DNA from: Actinomycetota bacterium
Lineage (GTDB): Bacteria; Actinomycetota; Coriobacteriia; Anaerosomatales; Anaerosomataceae
Assembly (NCBI GenBank): GCA_009668945.1
Contig: SBEH01000001.1
Location: 243,776 to 307,775, forward strand
Length of the DNA stretch: 64,000 bases
Reading direction: 5' to 3'
Shown here: positions 11,244 through 18,451 of the stretch, piece after piece
Numbering within the stretch: position 1 is the stretch's first letter
How the letters are laid out: every line of letters starts with the position of its first letter
Position numbers and translations under genes: made by a program
The notes under the pieces: generated by a model
Databases searched by the model: none
What the model was told of the DNA's origin: nothing
The model's input: the letters and a program-made list of their open reading frames with translations, nothing else

Positions 11244-12080
11244 CTACATCGACGCGTAGAGCTTCGCGTACGGCCGGTGGCTCATCGGCACGATCCGCGT
11301 GAACGGCTGGGACAGGATCTCCGCTGCGTCCATGCCCATCGCCCCCGCGTAGTCCTCGATGATCGGCCTCAGCTCGGCCATCGCGTCCTCGTCGGCCTCG
11401 GTCACACCCACCTCCGCACCGACTTGCCACGACTCGACCGTCCCGCGGATGTAGATGACTCCGCCGTGCATGCCCGCGCCGAGGAACCCGCCCGCGATCC
11501 GCTGCGCGGCATCCCGCGTGTTTATGCCGAGGAGCACGAGCATGCCGCCGGCCATGTACTCGCCGAAGAAGTCGCGCGCCTTGCCGCCACACACGAGCAC
11601 CGGGATGTTCTTCTCGTAGGCCTTCATGTGGATGCCTACGCGGTACCCGACATCGCCCTTGACGTAGACGTTGCCGCCGCGCATGCCGTAGCCGAGCACG
11701 TCGCCCGCGTCGCCGTGCACCACGACGCGGCCCGAGCTCATGGTGTTCCCGACGCCATCCTGGGCGTTGCCGAACACCTCGATCTCGGCACCGTCGGTGA
11801 ACATCGCCAGGTCGTTGCCTGCACACCCGTTGACCTCGAGCTTCACGCCTGACACACGCAGACCGCAGCCGACATATCGCTGACCGTTGACGCCGTTCAG
11901 CACGATTCGTTTCGCCCCGCCCGAGACCTCATCGCGGATTGCGTCGTTCAGCTGCTGGTAGTAGATGCCGGTCGCGTCGACGGTCACCACGTCACCGTCG
12001 CGAGTCACACTCGGCGCCTGCTGGCGGTAGCCCTCGATCACGCCCGCGGGGGGTGCTACCGTTGCTGCTTTCGTCATCAT
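11244..12080 (-). CDS. Glutamate synthase GXGXG-domain subunit (archaeal-type GltB3)
   Basis: The 278-residue protein corresponds to the C-terminal beta-helix of the glutamate synthase large subunit, encoded as a separate polypeptide. The GXGXG repeats run through residues about 95-230 with blocks such as GVGNTMSSGRVVVHGDAGD and GYGMRGGNVYVKGD. In fused enzymes this domain is structural and helps couple the amidotransferase and synthase sites. It is the last gene of a four-gene minus-strand operon, 13 nt after the FMN subunit. A related arrangement exists in N-methylglutamate synthase; the Fe-S-bearing FMN subunit next door fits archaeal-type glutamate synthase better. Confidence 0.88.
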   Translation of the reverse strand: MMTKAATVAPPAGVIEGYRQQAPSVTRDGDVVTVDATGIYYQQLNDAIRDEVSGGAKRIVLNGVNGQRYVGCGLRVSGVKLEVNGCAGNDLAMFTDGAEIEVFGNAQDGVGNTMSSGRVVVHGDAGDVLGYGMRGGNVYVKGDVGYRVGIHMKAYEKNIPVLVCGGKARDFFGEYMAGGMLVLLGINTRDAAQRIAGGFLGAGMHGGVIYIRGTVESWQVGAEVGVTEADEDAMAELRPIIEDYAGAMGMDAAEILSQPFTRIVPMSHRPYAKLYASM

Positions 12081-12093
12081 CTCGGCACTCCCC

Positions 12094-13605
<1,512 letters not shown>

Positions 13606-13606
13606 G

Positions 13607-14836
13607 CTAGACCGTCACCTCCTCGGCGTCACAGGCGGGTTCTACGGCCGTGACGGCGCAGGAGATCTGAGCCGCACCGAGGTGCAGGTCGCCGTGAATC
13701 GGCCAGTCCATGCCCTTTACGCGGCCGATGACCGGCTCCCCTGCCTTCGGCGTCCACACCTCGTCCGGATCGGGAAGGACCGTGCGGATCGCGCTCTCTT
13801 CGGAGGCGACCATGAGCTTGCTGCCACATCTCGCCGCCACGAGCGGGCGGAGCTTGATGCGGTCATTCAACGCCACCATTCCGCCGTTGAAGCCGAGTAC
13901 GATCGCGAAGGGACCGTTGAGCATGCCCGGCCCGTAGACCGCACGGAGCGAGCGCATGAGCGCGGCCTCGTCTTCGGGCATGCGGTCGATCTCGTCCCAC
14001 AGCGGCGCGGCAAGCGCCTTGCACGCCAGTGAGACCGGCAGCTTGTGGCGGCGCAGGAGCAGGTCGAACAGGTACGCGGCCACTTCCGTGTCCGTACCGA
14101 GCGAGCACGTGTAGCCGAACTGCTCGAGATAGCGGCTGTTGATGCCGTAGCTCGAGATCTCACCGTTGTGCACGATCGACCAGTCGAGCAGCGTGAATGG
14201 GTGCGCGCCGCCCCACCAGCCCGGCGTGTTCGTGGGGAAGCGGTTGTGCGCGACCCAGGTGTGCCCGGCGTACTCCTCGAGGCGGAAGTAGTGGCCGATC
14301 TCCTCGGGAAAGCCGACGCCCTTGAATGCGCCCATGTTCTTGCCCGAGGAGGCCACGAACGCGCCGTCCACACGCGAGTTAACGAGCATGACCACGCTCA
14401 CGACGTAGTCCTCGGCGCTCTGCTCGCGCTCGTCCAGGATGTGCTGGTGCGGGGTCATGAAGTAGCGCCACAGAAGCGGCGCGTCGGTGATGCCCTTCAC
14501 CGGCCGGGTAGGCATCGGCTCGGCGACCTCGATCAGGAAGTGCTGGTCGAGGATGGCCTCGGCCTCCTCCTTCGCCTTGAGGTCGTGGTACATCATGTGG
14601 AAGCAGAAGTGGTCGGCGAACTCGGGGTAGATGCCGTAGCCGGCATACCCGCCGCCGAGGCCGTTTCCGCGGTCGCGCTGGACGGCCATGGCGAGAATGG
14701 CCTCCTCGCCGCTCATGAGCGCGCCGCTCTCGTCGCAGAGCCCCATGAGGCCGCAGCCGCCATGGATCTTGAAAGGCGACTCCTCGCGGTACCTCGCGGG
14801 ATCGAACCCGTCGTATCGGCTCAGGTCGTAGGGCAT
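13607..14836 (-). CDS. Class II glutamine amidotransferase subunit of glutamate synthase (archaeal-type GltB1)
   Basis: This 409-residue protein is the glutaminase part that releases ammonia for the FMN subunit. The PurF-type Ntn-hydrolase signature is CGLMGLC, with the likely nucleophile Cys at residue 28. Further on are HNRFPTNTPGW, HNGEISSYG and GTDTEVAAY, all typical of class II amidotransferases. In this family the Cys must become N-terminal, so the 27 preceding residues (ending in IHGG) would need cleavage as a propeptide. Start is ATG 14836, five bases after the hdrBC-type stop, with GAGGAG as ribosome site. Same operon as the FMN and GXGXG subunits. Confidence 0.88.
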   Translation of the reverse strand: MPYDLSRYDGFDPARYREESPFKIHGGCGLMGLCDESGALMSGEEAILAMAVQRDRGNGLGGGYAGYGIYPEFADHFCFHMMYHDLKAKEEAEAILDQHFLIEVAEPMPTRPVKGITDAPLLWRYFMTPHQHILDEREQSAEDYVVSVVMLVNSRVDGAFVASSGKNMGAFKGVGFPEEIGHYFRLEEYAGHTWVAHNRFPTNTPGWWGGAHPFTLLDWSIVHNGEISSYGINSRYLEQFGYTCSLGTDTEVAAYLFDLLLRRHKLPVSLACKALAAPLWDEIDRMPEDEAALMRSLRAVYGPGMLNGPFAIVLGFNGGMVALNDRIKLRPLVAARCGSKLMVASEESAIRTVLPDPDEVWTPKAGEPVIGRVKGMDWPIHGDLHLGAAQISCAVTAVEPACDAEEVTV

Positions 14837-14841
14837 CTCGC

Positions 14842-16215
14842 TCACTCCTCTTCCGCGGCGACAGGCACGAACGCGACCGTCGCGGTGGTGTCGGGCTCCG
14901 TCCCGGCGAGCAGGCGCGCTATCGCATCGCCGCCGCCCTCGGGAAGGGACTCCAGGCCGAGCTTCTTCCGCGCGCTCTCGCGCGGCTTTCCGAGCGCGCC
15001 GGTCTTGAGGAACTCCGAGTACGCGGCTGCCACCGACTCGGGACCGGTTCCTCGCTCCATCGCGAGCTCCTTGAGCTGCCGGAAGACCTCGGCCATGCCA
15101 ATGCGGCTGTGGCACATCTCCTGGCACGTGTAGCACTCCAGACACTTCCAGAGCTGCGTCTCGGCAAGCGCCTCGTCGATCCGGCCCGCGAGCAAGTCCG
15201 CGATGATGTCGTTCGGCTGGAACGTAGGGTCGATCTTGCACACCGGGCAGTCGTCCTTGCACGCCCGGCACGAGTCGCACTTCACGAGCATCGCAACATC
15301 GAAGTGCTGGCCGAGCGCACGCTTGTCCTCGGCGCGTGACTCCCACTTGGCGAGGAACGGCTCGACGCTGACGCGGTGCATGTCCAGGCCAAGCTCATCC
15401 GGGGCGTGCCCCATCGCCAGCGCGATCAGCTCCGAGAGGTAGAACACCGGGACGTTCACGTCCTCGTTCGCGCGCTGGAGCGCCGCCTGGTTGAGGTCGA
15501 ACTGCTGGAAGCAGCTGGGGCAGACAATGACGAGCGCGTCCACGCCCTCGTTCTGGAGGTCGTAGAGCTTCCTGCGGCAGAATGCGAGCGAACCTTCGCG
15601 CTCGCCTACGCGGTCGAGCGCGCCGCCGCAGCACTGCATCTTGGTTGCGTAGTCCACAACGCGCGCGCCGAGCGCCGCGACGAGCTCCTCGACCTTCGTG
15701 GGATTGAGCGGATCGTCCCAGCGCACCGCCGGTTGCGGACGGAGGAGGTGGCAGCCGTAGTGCACGGCCACGCGCATGCCCCACAGCGGCTTGGTGACCT
15801 TCGCGCCGAGCGATCCGGCACCGACGGTGTCGGACAGCCATTCGGCGAAGTGCAGGACCTCGAGGTCGCCGGTGTAGCGAAGGTCTTCTGATGCGAGCCG
15901 GTCGTTGATGCGCTCGCGGCTCCGCCAGTCCTTCGCGAGGTGGCTCGAGGCCTCCTTGAACGTCGAGTAGCAGCCGTTGCACGGCGTGACCACGCCGAGG
16001 CCTGCCTTCTCCACGATCGCGAGGTTGCGTGCCGCGGCGGTGTAGAACGCATCCTCGTCGTTGGCCTTCACGAGCGTGCCCTCGGGGCAGCACGTGTGAC
16101 CGGCGAGCTCATGCACGCTCGCGCCGAGGTCGTCGAAGACCACCCGCGTCGACTTCTCGATGAACGGGAACCTCGCGGGGATGGTGCATCCCCAGAAGAC
16201 CGCGAACTCCCTCAC
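14842..16215 (-). CDS. HdrB-HdrC fusion, heterodisulfide-reductase-like electron carrier
   Basis: The 457-residue protein joins two CCG (HdrB) domains to an HdrC-like ferredoxin domain. The first CCG set is C10, C42-C43, C79 and C82; the second is C155, C195-C196, C232 and C235. These cysteine sets bind the noncubane clusters that split disulfides in HdrB. The C-part has C313/C316/C319/C323 and C358/C361/C364/C368, two [4Fe-4S] clusters as in HdrC. It is cytoplasmic and soluble, with no membrane segments. It is the first gene of the glutamate synthase operon, so it may pass electrons to, or sense redox state for, that enzyme. Glycolate-oxidase or lactate-utilisation Fe-S proteins share CCG domains and are the main alternative. 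Confidence 0.85.
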   Translation of the reverse strand: MREFAVFWGCTIPARFPFIEKSTRVVFDDLGASVHELAGHTCCPEGTLVKANDEDAFYTAAARNLAIVEKAGLGVVTPCNGCYSTFKEASSHLAKDWRSRERINDRLASEDLRYTGDLEVLHFAEWLSDTVGAGSLGAKVTKPLWGMRVAVHYGCHLLRPQPAVRWDDPLNPTKVEELVAALGARVVDYATKMQCCGGALDRVGEREGSLAFCRRKLYDLQNEGVDALVIVCPSCFQQFDLNQAALQRANEDVNVPVFYLSELIALAMGHAPDELGLDMHRVSVEPFLAKWESRAEDKRALGQHFDVAMLVKCDSCRACKDDCPVCKIDPTFQPNDIIADLLAGRIDEALAETQLWKCLECYTCQEMCHSRIGMAEVFRQLKELAMERGTGPESVAAAYSEFLKTGALGKPRESARKKLGLESLPEGGGDAIARLLAGTEPDTTATVAFVPVAAEEE

Positions 16216-16287
16216 GTGACCACCTTCTCGCTCTCAGGCCCGTAGACCCTGCGCCGCTCCGGGTGGTCGCGCCTCGGCAGAAACGAA

Positions 16288-16327
16288 GACGCCCACCCGG
16301 ACCGCCGTCGGATCCGATGTGAGCGTC
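16288..16327 (-). terminator. Leader terminator overlapping the second ANTAR hairpin
   Basis: On the minus strand GACGCUCAC (16319-16327) can pair with GUGGGCGUC (16288-16296) in nine base pairs with one G-U, enclosing a loop with further self-complementarity. The next bases are UUCGUUUCUG, moderately U-rich. The 5' arm uses the same bases as the 3' side of the second hexaloop hairpin, so the two folds exclude each other, as expected for antitermination. Confidence 0.55.
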
Positions 16328-16363
16328 GTTGCTCGGGTTCTCTTGAAGGCTCGCCGTTGAGCC
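16321..16363 (-). promoter_or_regulatory. Candidate ANTAR RNA target: two hexaloop hairpins
   Basis: The operon leader (minus strand) holds hairpin P1, GGCUC-AACGGC-GAGCC (16348-16363), then a 13-nt linker, then hairpin P2, GAGC-AACGAC-GCUC (16321-16334). Both loops have six bases with A at position 1 and G at position 4, the signature reported for RNAs bound by ANTAR regulators. P1 begins within a few bases of the predicted transcription start, and P2 overlaps a terminator-like stem. The gene pair for an ANTAR regulator and its kinase lies immediately upstream. Confidence 0.7.
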
Positions 16364-16371
16364 GTAGGCGG

Positions 16372-16377
16372 ATTCTA
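16372..16377 (-). promoter_or_regulatory. -10 element for the HdrBC/glutamate synthase operon
   Basis: TAGAAT preceded by TGC (extended -10) would start transcription near 16365, leaving a leader of about 150 nt before the first gene. No good -35 box is seen at 17 bp. Confidence 0.45.
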
Positions 16378-16446
16378 GCAGACGCAGCGCCAGAACGGAA
16401 GTGCGCGCCGAAACACAGGAGAAACTCGCCGGCCCTGTGCGAGTGC

Positions 16447-17016
16447 CTACCCTTCGGCGTCGGAGGCCAGTATCACCGCTTCGGCGACTTGCTTCAAGGA
16501 CATCCGCTTGTCCATCGCGAGCTTCTGCAGGCGGCGGAACGCCTCGGGCTCGGTCATGCCCTTGGCCATGAGCACGCCCTTGGCGCGGTCGATGGACTTG
16601 CGGGTCTCAAGCCGGTCGTTCAGGTCCTCTACCTCCGCCTCGAGCGCTCGGGCCTCGGCGAAGCGCGACACCGCCACCGTCATTGCCGGCATGATGTCGC
16701 TCTTGGAGAACGGCTTGATGAGGTAGGCCATAGCACCCGCGGCCGTCGCCTCGTCGACGTAGGCCTGCTGCGAGAACGCGGTGACCATCACGACCGGTGA
16801 GATGCGTCCCTCCCCGATTGCGCGCGCCGCCTCAAGACCGCCGGTACCCGGCATCTTCACGTCCATGAACACGATGTCGGGCCGCAGGTCGCGTGCGAGC
16901 GCGATCGCTTCGGCCCCGTCGCGCGCCTCGCCGACGACCTCGTGGCCCTCCTCGGTGAGCATCTCGCGCAGGTCCATGCGGATGATGGCTTCGTCTTCCG
17001 CGATGAGCACACGCAT
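16447..17016 (-). CDS. pdtaR: ANTAR-domain response regulator, PdtaR type
   Basis: The 189-residue protein has a CheY-like receiver (1-120) with acidic residues E7 and D8, phosphoacceptor D52 and K101, joined to a C-terminal ANTAR domain (about 123-180; DRAKGVLMAKG, EAFRRLQKLAM). ANTAR regulators bind dual-hairpin RNAs and prevent transcription termination after phosphorylation. Start is ATG 17016, ten bases after the kinase stop, so the two are cotranscribed. In Mycobacterium pdtaR also lies near polA-rpsA-coaE-uvrB. The leader of the next operon downstream (16321-16363) is a likely target. Confidence 0.93.
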   Translation of the reverse strand: MRVLIAEDEAIIRMDLREMLTEEGHEVVGEARDGAEAIALARDLRPDIVFMDVKMPGTGGLEAARAIGEGRISPVVMVTAFSQQAYVDEATAAGAMAYLIKPFSKSDIMPAMTVAVSRFAEARALEAEVEDLNDRLETRKSIDRAKGVLMAKGMTEPEAFRRLQKLAMDKRMSLKQVAEAVILASDAEG

Positions 17017-17026
17017 GGTCGGCGGT

Positions 17027-18451
17027 TCAGCTCCTCTCCGGAACAGGGACACGCACTGACACAAGCGTACCCGCTGCGGTGCCGAAGGACAGAGTACCGC
17101 GCAGATCGTCTTCGACGATGGTGCGCACGATATCCAGTCCGAGGTTGGCCGAGACGTTCACGGCGAACCCCGCCGGCAGGCCCTTCCCGGAGTCTTGAAC
17201 CGACAACGACACCTGCGAGGGCGTGCCGCGCATCGTCACAGCGACGGTACCGGTGCCCGACTGGCCGATGCCGTGCTCGATCGCGTTATGCACGAGTTCG
17301 ACGGCCACGAGCGCGAGCGACGTAGCCACCGGCGCGGGTACGAGCCCAGTCTCGCCCTCGACCGAAATCCGGATCTGCCCTTCCTTAGCGATCAGGCCGC
17401 GCCCCACCATGTCCACCACAGTGCGCACCGCCGCCGAGAGATCCACCGACTCCTCGGTGGACTCCGCGAGCATTTCGTGCACGACAGCCATCGACGACAC
17501 CCGCTCGACGGCCTCCTCGAGCGCATGCGCCGCCTCTCCGCTCGTCGACCGGCGCGCCTGGATGCGCAGGAGTGAGGCGATCGTCTGCAAGTTGTTCTTC
17601 ACGCGGTGGTGCACCTCGCGGATCGTCGCTTCCTTCACACGGAGTTCCTGCTCGCGCCGTAGGGCGTCGGTGACGTCCTCCACGAGCACCAGGGCGCCCT
17701 CGGCAAGCGCGATCGTGCGGTACCGCAGCGCGCGTCCACGCACCTCGATCGTCATCTCGCGCGCGGCGCCGGTGCCGAGCACCGGGGTGACGGCTGTCGC
17801 CCCACCCGGAAGTGCCGAGGCCGGGCTGCCCACGAGCGCGCCCTCGGTGCCCGCCAGCCGCATGATGTTGACCGCGTTCGGGCTCGCGTACGTGACCTCG
17901 CCGCTCGACGCGACTTCGATCACCCCGTCACCGGCGAGTCGGGTCGTCGAGTACGGCATGTCGAACTCCAGGTCGGTGATCGGACCCGCCTGAAGCCGCT
18001 CGAGCACGAGACCCGCAAGCCGCATGAACGCGATCTCCATCTTGCCCGGTGCCTCGGCCACGCTCTGTCCGAGGTGCCGGACCACGACGGCGTACGGCTT
18101 CGAGGCCGGGCCGACCGGGTAGCCCGTCGACGTGAACGCGATCCCCCGTCGCGTACGGCGCCTGGTTCCGCACGCGAGCACACCCCCGTCGAGCGCGTCG
18201 TACGCCTCCGGCTCGTCATCGCGCGGCACCGACTCACCAACGCGAGTGACCGGAACGGCGGCGGCCGCGGTCATCGGACGGGCGTCGGCCATCACACGGA
18301 GCACTCCGTCATCGCCCGGGACGAGCAGCGCGACGTCGCCGTAGCCGAGGTCTGCCGCCAGCTGCAGGTTCGCAGAGACGTTCTCGACGTGTGCGCGCTG
18401 TTCCGAAGACAGCGAAGCCGGTCCTGCTTGTGGCTGCTTGGGTGCGTTCAT
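17027..18451 (-). CDS. pdtaS: Sensor histidine kinase, PdtaS type
   Basis: This soluble 474-residue kinase is expected to phosphorylate the adjacent ANTAR regulator. It has an N-terminal GAF-like sensor (about 10-155), a PAS domain (about 165-260; ASPNAVNIMRL), a HisKA_2 dimerisation domain with HHRVKNNLQTI (phospho-His 281 or 282), and an HWE/HisKA_2-type ATPase domain (ELVHNAIEHG, DSGKGLP, GLDIV). No membrane segment is seen, so the signal is cytoplasmic, for example a ligand or redox state. A consensus -10 box only 8 bp before the start codon suggests a nearly leaderless mRNA. Confidence 0.92.
   Translation of the reverse strand: MNAPKQPQAGPASLSSEQRAHVENVSANLQLAADLGYGDVALLVPGDDGVLRVMADARPMTAAAAVPVTRVGESVPRDDEPEAYDALDGGVLACGTRRRTRRGIAFTSTGYPVGPASKPYAVVVRHLGQSVAEAPGKMEIAFMRLAGLVLERLQAGPITDLEFDMPYSTTRLAGDGVIEVASSGEVTYASPNAVNIMRLAGTEGALVGSPASALPGGATAVTPVLGTGAAREMTIEVRGRALRYRTIALAEGALVLVEDVTDALRREQELRVKEATIREVHHRVKNNLQTIASLLRIQARRSTSGEAAHALEEAVERVSSMAVVHEMLAESTEESVDLSAAVRTVVDMVGRGLIAKEGQIRISVEGETGLVPAPVATSLALVAVELVHNAIEHGIGQSGTGTVAVTMRGTPSQVSLSVQDSGKGLPAGFAVNVSANLGLDIVRTIVEDDLRGTLSFGTAAGTLVSVRVPVPERS

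Follow-up and report, generated by a model that had tools for sequence, protein, structure and literature searches.

The leader RNA of the HdrBC-glutamate synthase operon, on the minus strand of the window analysed here (the whole 64-kb stretch, from a genome of 1.92 Mb with metagenome-assembled genomes (MAGs) of Coriobacteriia/Anaerosomatales as its nearest named relatives), is very probably an ANTAR-target transcription attenuator that would be relieved by a phosphorylated ANTAR regulator. As far as the sequence can tell, this leader is almost certainly read by the regulator encoded just upstream. The first-pass annotation of this DNA had described, at the start of the predicted transcript, two hairpins (P1 and P2) 13 nt apart with the six-base loops AACGGC and AACGAC, each carrying A at position 1 (A1) and G at position 4 (G4), and a 9-bp terminator stem with a U-rich stretch whose 5' arm is overlapped by P2. 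All of these features are present, on the minus strand (Table 1). They make up the established ANTAR-target architecture, namely dual hexaloops on stems of at least 3 bp, a linker within 2–25 nt, a terminator over P2, and an ANTAR protein in the genome.

The 5' arm of the terminator takes up positions 4–6 of the P2 loop and the entire 3' arm of P2. Step-wise folding of the growing transcript indicated that P1 and P2 form first and that the terminator displaces P2 from about nt 77, and the full leader with the terminator was calculated to be 9 kcal/mol more stable than with P2 enforced. The fold-energy z-score of the bare leader (−1.24) is unremarkable and not significant alone; hence, the case rests on comparison with relatives.

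The search for orthologs of HdrBC covered 99 genomes and yielded about 60. The 62 HdrBC leaders retrieved, one of them cut by a contig end, left 61 usable sequences from approximately 20 families of Coriobacteriia. All 61 have a P2 hairpin that fits GRGC-RNNGNN-GCUH and is followed by a terminator; P1 was found in 60. An extended −10 element (TGnTAnnnT) lies just 5' of P1 in 57/61 leaders, together with a weak TTCCC-like −35 element, and the linker ranges from 8 to 25 nt, 13 nt being the commonest length. Loop position 4 is G in 60/60 P1 and 61/61 P2 hairpins, and position 1 is A in 49/60 and 58/61, respectively, and G in all others, the P1 counts being slightly biased toward A1 and G4 by a small bonus given to these bases in the P1 finder. 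G replaces A at position 1 in one hexaloop, never in both, in L028, L029, L031, L032, L039, L040 and L045, and likewise in the further relatives L047, L051, L052, L054, L058, L061 and L019.

The alternative pairing of the terminator is kept in 61/61 leaders (9/9 pairs in 56 and 8/9 in five); thus, neither the hexaloops nor this pairing, the loss of which in relatives had been looked for, has been lost. Terminator pair 8 is G-C in 31 leaders, A-U in 28 and G-U in two, and in five leaders a C to A change at P2 loop position 6 is paired with a G to U change in the opposite terminator arm.

The compensatory changes sought in relatives were found in P1, where five of the six pairs vary on both sides, with 45 two-sided cells against 11.1 after shuffling. 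The covariation score of P1 is 0.254, as compared with 0.118 for shuffled and at most 0.057 for slid controls. On the tree of the adjacent protein, counting changes between standard pairs only, pairs 2 to 6 show 4, 8, 7, 9 and 3 state changes with pairing kept, at least 31 in all. These data bear on the notion that P2 is a mere terminator base and that the leader is a constitutive partial terminator, lowering expression without regulation. The sequence of P2 is indeed nearly invariant and lies inside the terminator, as that notion would have it; P1, however, shows strong covariation in its stem and retention of G4 in its loop although it lies outside the terminator, and an unregulated terminator is considered very improbable.

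Control at the level of translation, the mode suggested for many ANTAR targets in actinobacteria (PMC8164766), is judged no less improbable in this leader. The element ends at 16280, approximately 65 nt before the GTG start codon at 16215, and overlaps a terminator; in the relatives P2 is located 72–137 nt (in one case 219 nt) upstream of the start codon.

Only one ANTAR protein was found in a search of this genome, and its gene lies directly upstream of the leader. Its Response_reg and ANTAR domains matched Pfam with 94 and 76 bits, respectively, and the protein is closest to PdtaR/Rv1626 (1s8n, 216 bits) and EutV (6wsh/6ww6, 136 bits), to which it aligns end to end. When the alignment was read against the EutV-RNA structure (PMC8934654), most RNA-contact residues proved to be retained, R142, K143, K149, E160, M172 and R175 being identical to those of EutV. 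The G4-stacking Y164 is replaced by F and N173 by D, both as in PdtaR, and K147 by R, whereas the EutV contact residues R168 and R177 are lost (to Q and S, respectively).

The window contains just one dual A1/G4 hexaloop overlapped by a terminator, as compared with 0.07 expected per window from simulated sequence. A scan of the whole genome for AAYGRC...AANGRC loop patterns with 16–28 nt spacing, which targets with other loop sequences could escape, gave 50 loop pairs, and only the one in this leader has stems of at least 3 pairs at both loops. No second canonical dual hexaloop was found in this genome by loop-pattern searches, and scanning for hairpins around the two glnA and the two amt genes likewise gave no such element. 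The covariance search of the genome that the first-pass annotation had proposed was performed with a model (R1) built from the HdrBC leaders and gave one strong site, at 52.1 bits, with the next match at 16.9. High scores of these leaders follow from the construction of the model, and what it adds is the finding of no second strong site.

Among 97 genomes, a strong RNA site was found once per genome in 60 (rare second matches score at most 24.2 bits by the covariance model), and a single ANTAR protein in 67. Both are present in 59 genomes, the RNA alone in one (a MAG that is 64% complete), the ANTAR protein alone in eight and neither of the two in 29; Fisher's test, which takes no account of phylogeny, gives P = 2.3e-16. 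In all 47 genomes in which the two share a contig, the ANTAR gene lies upstream on the same strand, in 27 of them at less than 1 kb. The placement of kinase, regulator and target side by side, stressed in the first-pass annotation, holds here but is not general, the regulator lying from 37 bp to 14 kb upstream in the relatives. An attenuator of this shape could instead be read by another trans-acting factor, or by nothing, the ANTAR protein having other targets. Such a reading could appeal to the few genomes that have the ANTAR protein without the element and to the fact that binding by the regulator is a prediction. It is nevertheless improbable in view of the one-to-one co-occurrence, the fixed gene order, the G4/A1 hexaloops specific to ANTAR recognition and the single canonical dual hexaloop found in the genome by loop-pattern searches.

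Several observations weigh against an attenuator relieved by the ANTAR regulator. In eight genomes with the ANTAR protein the model detected no strong site: P1 is missing from G051, the ortholog of G068 is at a contig end, and six (G057, G059, G062, G064, G065 and G077), in which no element was detected near the ANTAR gene, have no full HdrBC ortholog (absent or a fragment). The last six reflect either gaps in the MAGs or a different target. Furthermore, 11/60 P1 loops begin with G. In the EutV-RNA structure, G4 is the sole loop base contacted base-specifically (PMC8934654), and this is consistent with position 1 tolerating G. The stem of P2 is nearly invariant (the inner stem is invariant) and by itself gives no covariation support; this constancy could be due in part to the terminator. 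Finally, the leader's own U tail in this genome is poor for a strong terminator.

The exceptional leader of G051 (L033, identical in sequence to L085; L085:2740-2860; MAG Lab288P3bin234) has P2 and the terminator without P1. In it, the palindrome CTATAATCATTATAG replaces P1 and the 5' leader is longer. It offers a natural test of whether a single hexaloop suffices. A divergent leader (L109:2899-2935) precedes an HdrBC that is 59% identical, in a MAG labelled Slackia; it includes both hexaloops with a linker of only about 4 nt and scores 20.3 bits with the model. No element was found upstream of HdrBC homologues in MAGs of Thermoleophilia and Deltaproteobacteria; hence, the element appears to be specific to Coriobacteriia.

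A consensus scan reported neither a promoter nor a minus-strand terminator in the leader, probably owing to the weak −35 element and an interruption of the stem. Comparison with Rfam gave only a tRNA at the gathering score and, at a relaxed E value, only a weak match of the leader (16323-16391, minus strand) to the narK RNA (RF03032; 18.3 bits, E 0.42), below the gathering score of 43.2 for membership of that family. The narK RNA has an AACGGC hexaloop in its consensus hairpin, like P1, but its model differs in having a single annotated hairpin without a second hairpin or terminator. The narK RNA family may itself be an ANTAR (NasT) target of which a single half has been annotated.

The gene order on the minus strand is the PdtaS-like kinase, the REC-ANTAR regulator, a gap of 231 nt, the HdrB-HdrC fusion, and the glutamine amidotransferase (GATase), Glu_synthase and GXGXG subunits, with a glutamine synthetase gene, which lacks an element of this kind, farther downstream of the operon (approximately 10460-9117, minus strand). 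The HdrB-HdrC fusion is the first gene of this split glutamate synthase operon and suggests an electron input differing from the usual NADPH subunit; homologues at 36–47% identity occur in Deltaproteobacteria. The Glu_synthase subunit is the only full-length glutamate synthase of the genome, the three other matches being short and weak.

Table 1. Elements of the predicted leader and genes of the locus, with positions in the window.
Feature	Position	Strand	Basis
−35-like element TTCCGT, 17 nt 5' of the −10; weak (consensus in relatives TTCCC)	16395..16400	minus	
Extended −10 TGCTAGAAT; −10 hexamer TAGAAT at 16377-16372; predicted start ~16365	16372..16380	minus	
P1 hairpin GGCUC-AACGGC-GAGCC, 5 bp	16348..16363	minus	sequence, covariation
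Linker UUCAAGAGAACCC, 13 nt	16335..16347	minus	
P2 hairpin GAGC-AACGAC-GCUC, 4 bp	16321..16334	minus	
Intrinsic terminator, 9-bp lower arm; arms GACGCUCAC / GUGGGCGUC	16288..16327	minus	
U-rich tail UUCGUUUC, directly after the terminator	16280..16287	minus	
PdtaS-like cytosolic histidine kinase (GAF_PdtaS, HisKA_2, HATPase_c)	17027..18451	minus	Pfam
REC-ANTAR response regulator (PdtaR/Rv1626-like)	16447..17016	minus	Pfam, genome search, PDB match 1s8n and 6wsh/6ww6
HdrB-HdrC fusion protein (2 CCG domains, HdrB-like, 4Fe-4S); start GTG 16215	14842..16215	minus	Pfam, NCBIfam
GATase subunit of glutamate synthase	13607..14836	minus	Pfam
Ferredoxin-FMN Glu_synthase subunit	12094..13605	minus	Pfam, genome search
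GXGXG subunit of glutamate synthase	11244..12080	minus	Pfam

In the proposed mechanism, transcription would start at the foot of P1, and P1 and P2 would fold while emerging. When no active regulator is present, the more stable terminator would take the loop and the 3' arm of P2, and RNA polymerase would halt before the HdrBC-glutamate synthase genes. Upon phosphorylation of the PdtaR-like protein by the PdtaS-like kinase, an ANTAR dimer would grip both hexaloops via G4 and keep P2 together, so that the terminator is blocked and the operon transcribed. We infer the binding of the regulator, its dependence on phosphorylation and the direction of control (activation). Candidate signals are the nitrogen status or, by analogy with mycobacterial PdtaS, heme/iron, nitric oxide (NO) or copper. 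A further-reaching and rather doubtful proposal is that one ANTAR protein has been kept across the whole order, made up of anaerobic actinobacteria, solely for one RNA switch before the only glutamate synthase, and that it is not nitrogen itself but the state of redox, iron or heme to which the PdtaS-type kinase tunes this HdrBC-fed, iron-sulfur-rich enzyme.

One of the closest known parallels in architecture is EutV/EutW with the eutP leader of Enterococcus faecalis, which likewise combines A1/G4 dual hexaloops, a terminator overlapping P2 and a REC-ANTAR protein with a histidine kinase (PMC3369931, PMC8934654). Here, however, the target is glutamate synthase and not ethanolamine use, the kinase is of the PdtaS type, there is one RNA site per genome, and position 1 of P1 is sometimes G. 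The regulator is closest in sequence to that of PdtaS-PdtaR (Rv3220c-Rv1626) of mycobacteria, which also shares the GAF_PdtaS kinase and has been tied to lipid and redox processes (PMC8164766), heme/iron (PMC11537054), and NO and copper (PMC8131098). According to a survey of actinobacterial ANTAR RNAs, few carry a terminator (PMC8164766), whereas the leaders studied here have one almost throughout and have nitrogen assimilation as their target; the main text of that survey makes no mention of Coriobacteriia or glutamate synthase.

Glutamate synthase as a predicted ANTAR target is already known. In the Firmicutes Desulfotomaculum reducens and D. acetoxidans, glutamate synthase and further nitrogen genes were predicted in 2012 to be preceded by ANTAR targets with terminators (PMC3369931). 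The leader described here shares with them a terminator-bearing ANTAR target upstream of glutamate synthase; that regulon, however, comprises several operons per genome, as compared with a single site before an HdrBC-linked glutamate synthase in Coriobacteriia. The leader is thus a further, well supported ANTAR-target attenuator. What looks new, within the literature that could be searched, is a dedicated circuit of one regulator and one RNA, fixed on an HdrBC-linked glutamate synthase across the Anaerosomatales, an order named in 2022 (PMC9686372).

Such a circuit would be a minimal one, with one kinase, one regulator, one RNA and one operon, and is available in about 60 natural variants, of which those with G-first loops and the natural leader without P1 should be useful for probing ANTAR-RNA recognition. 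It predicts switching of nitrogen assimilation in a widespread, little-cultured subsurface order.
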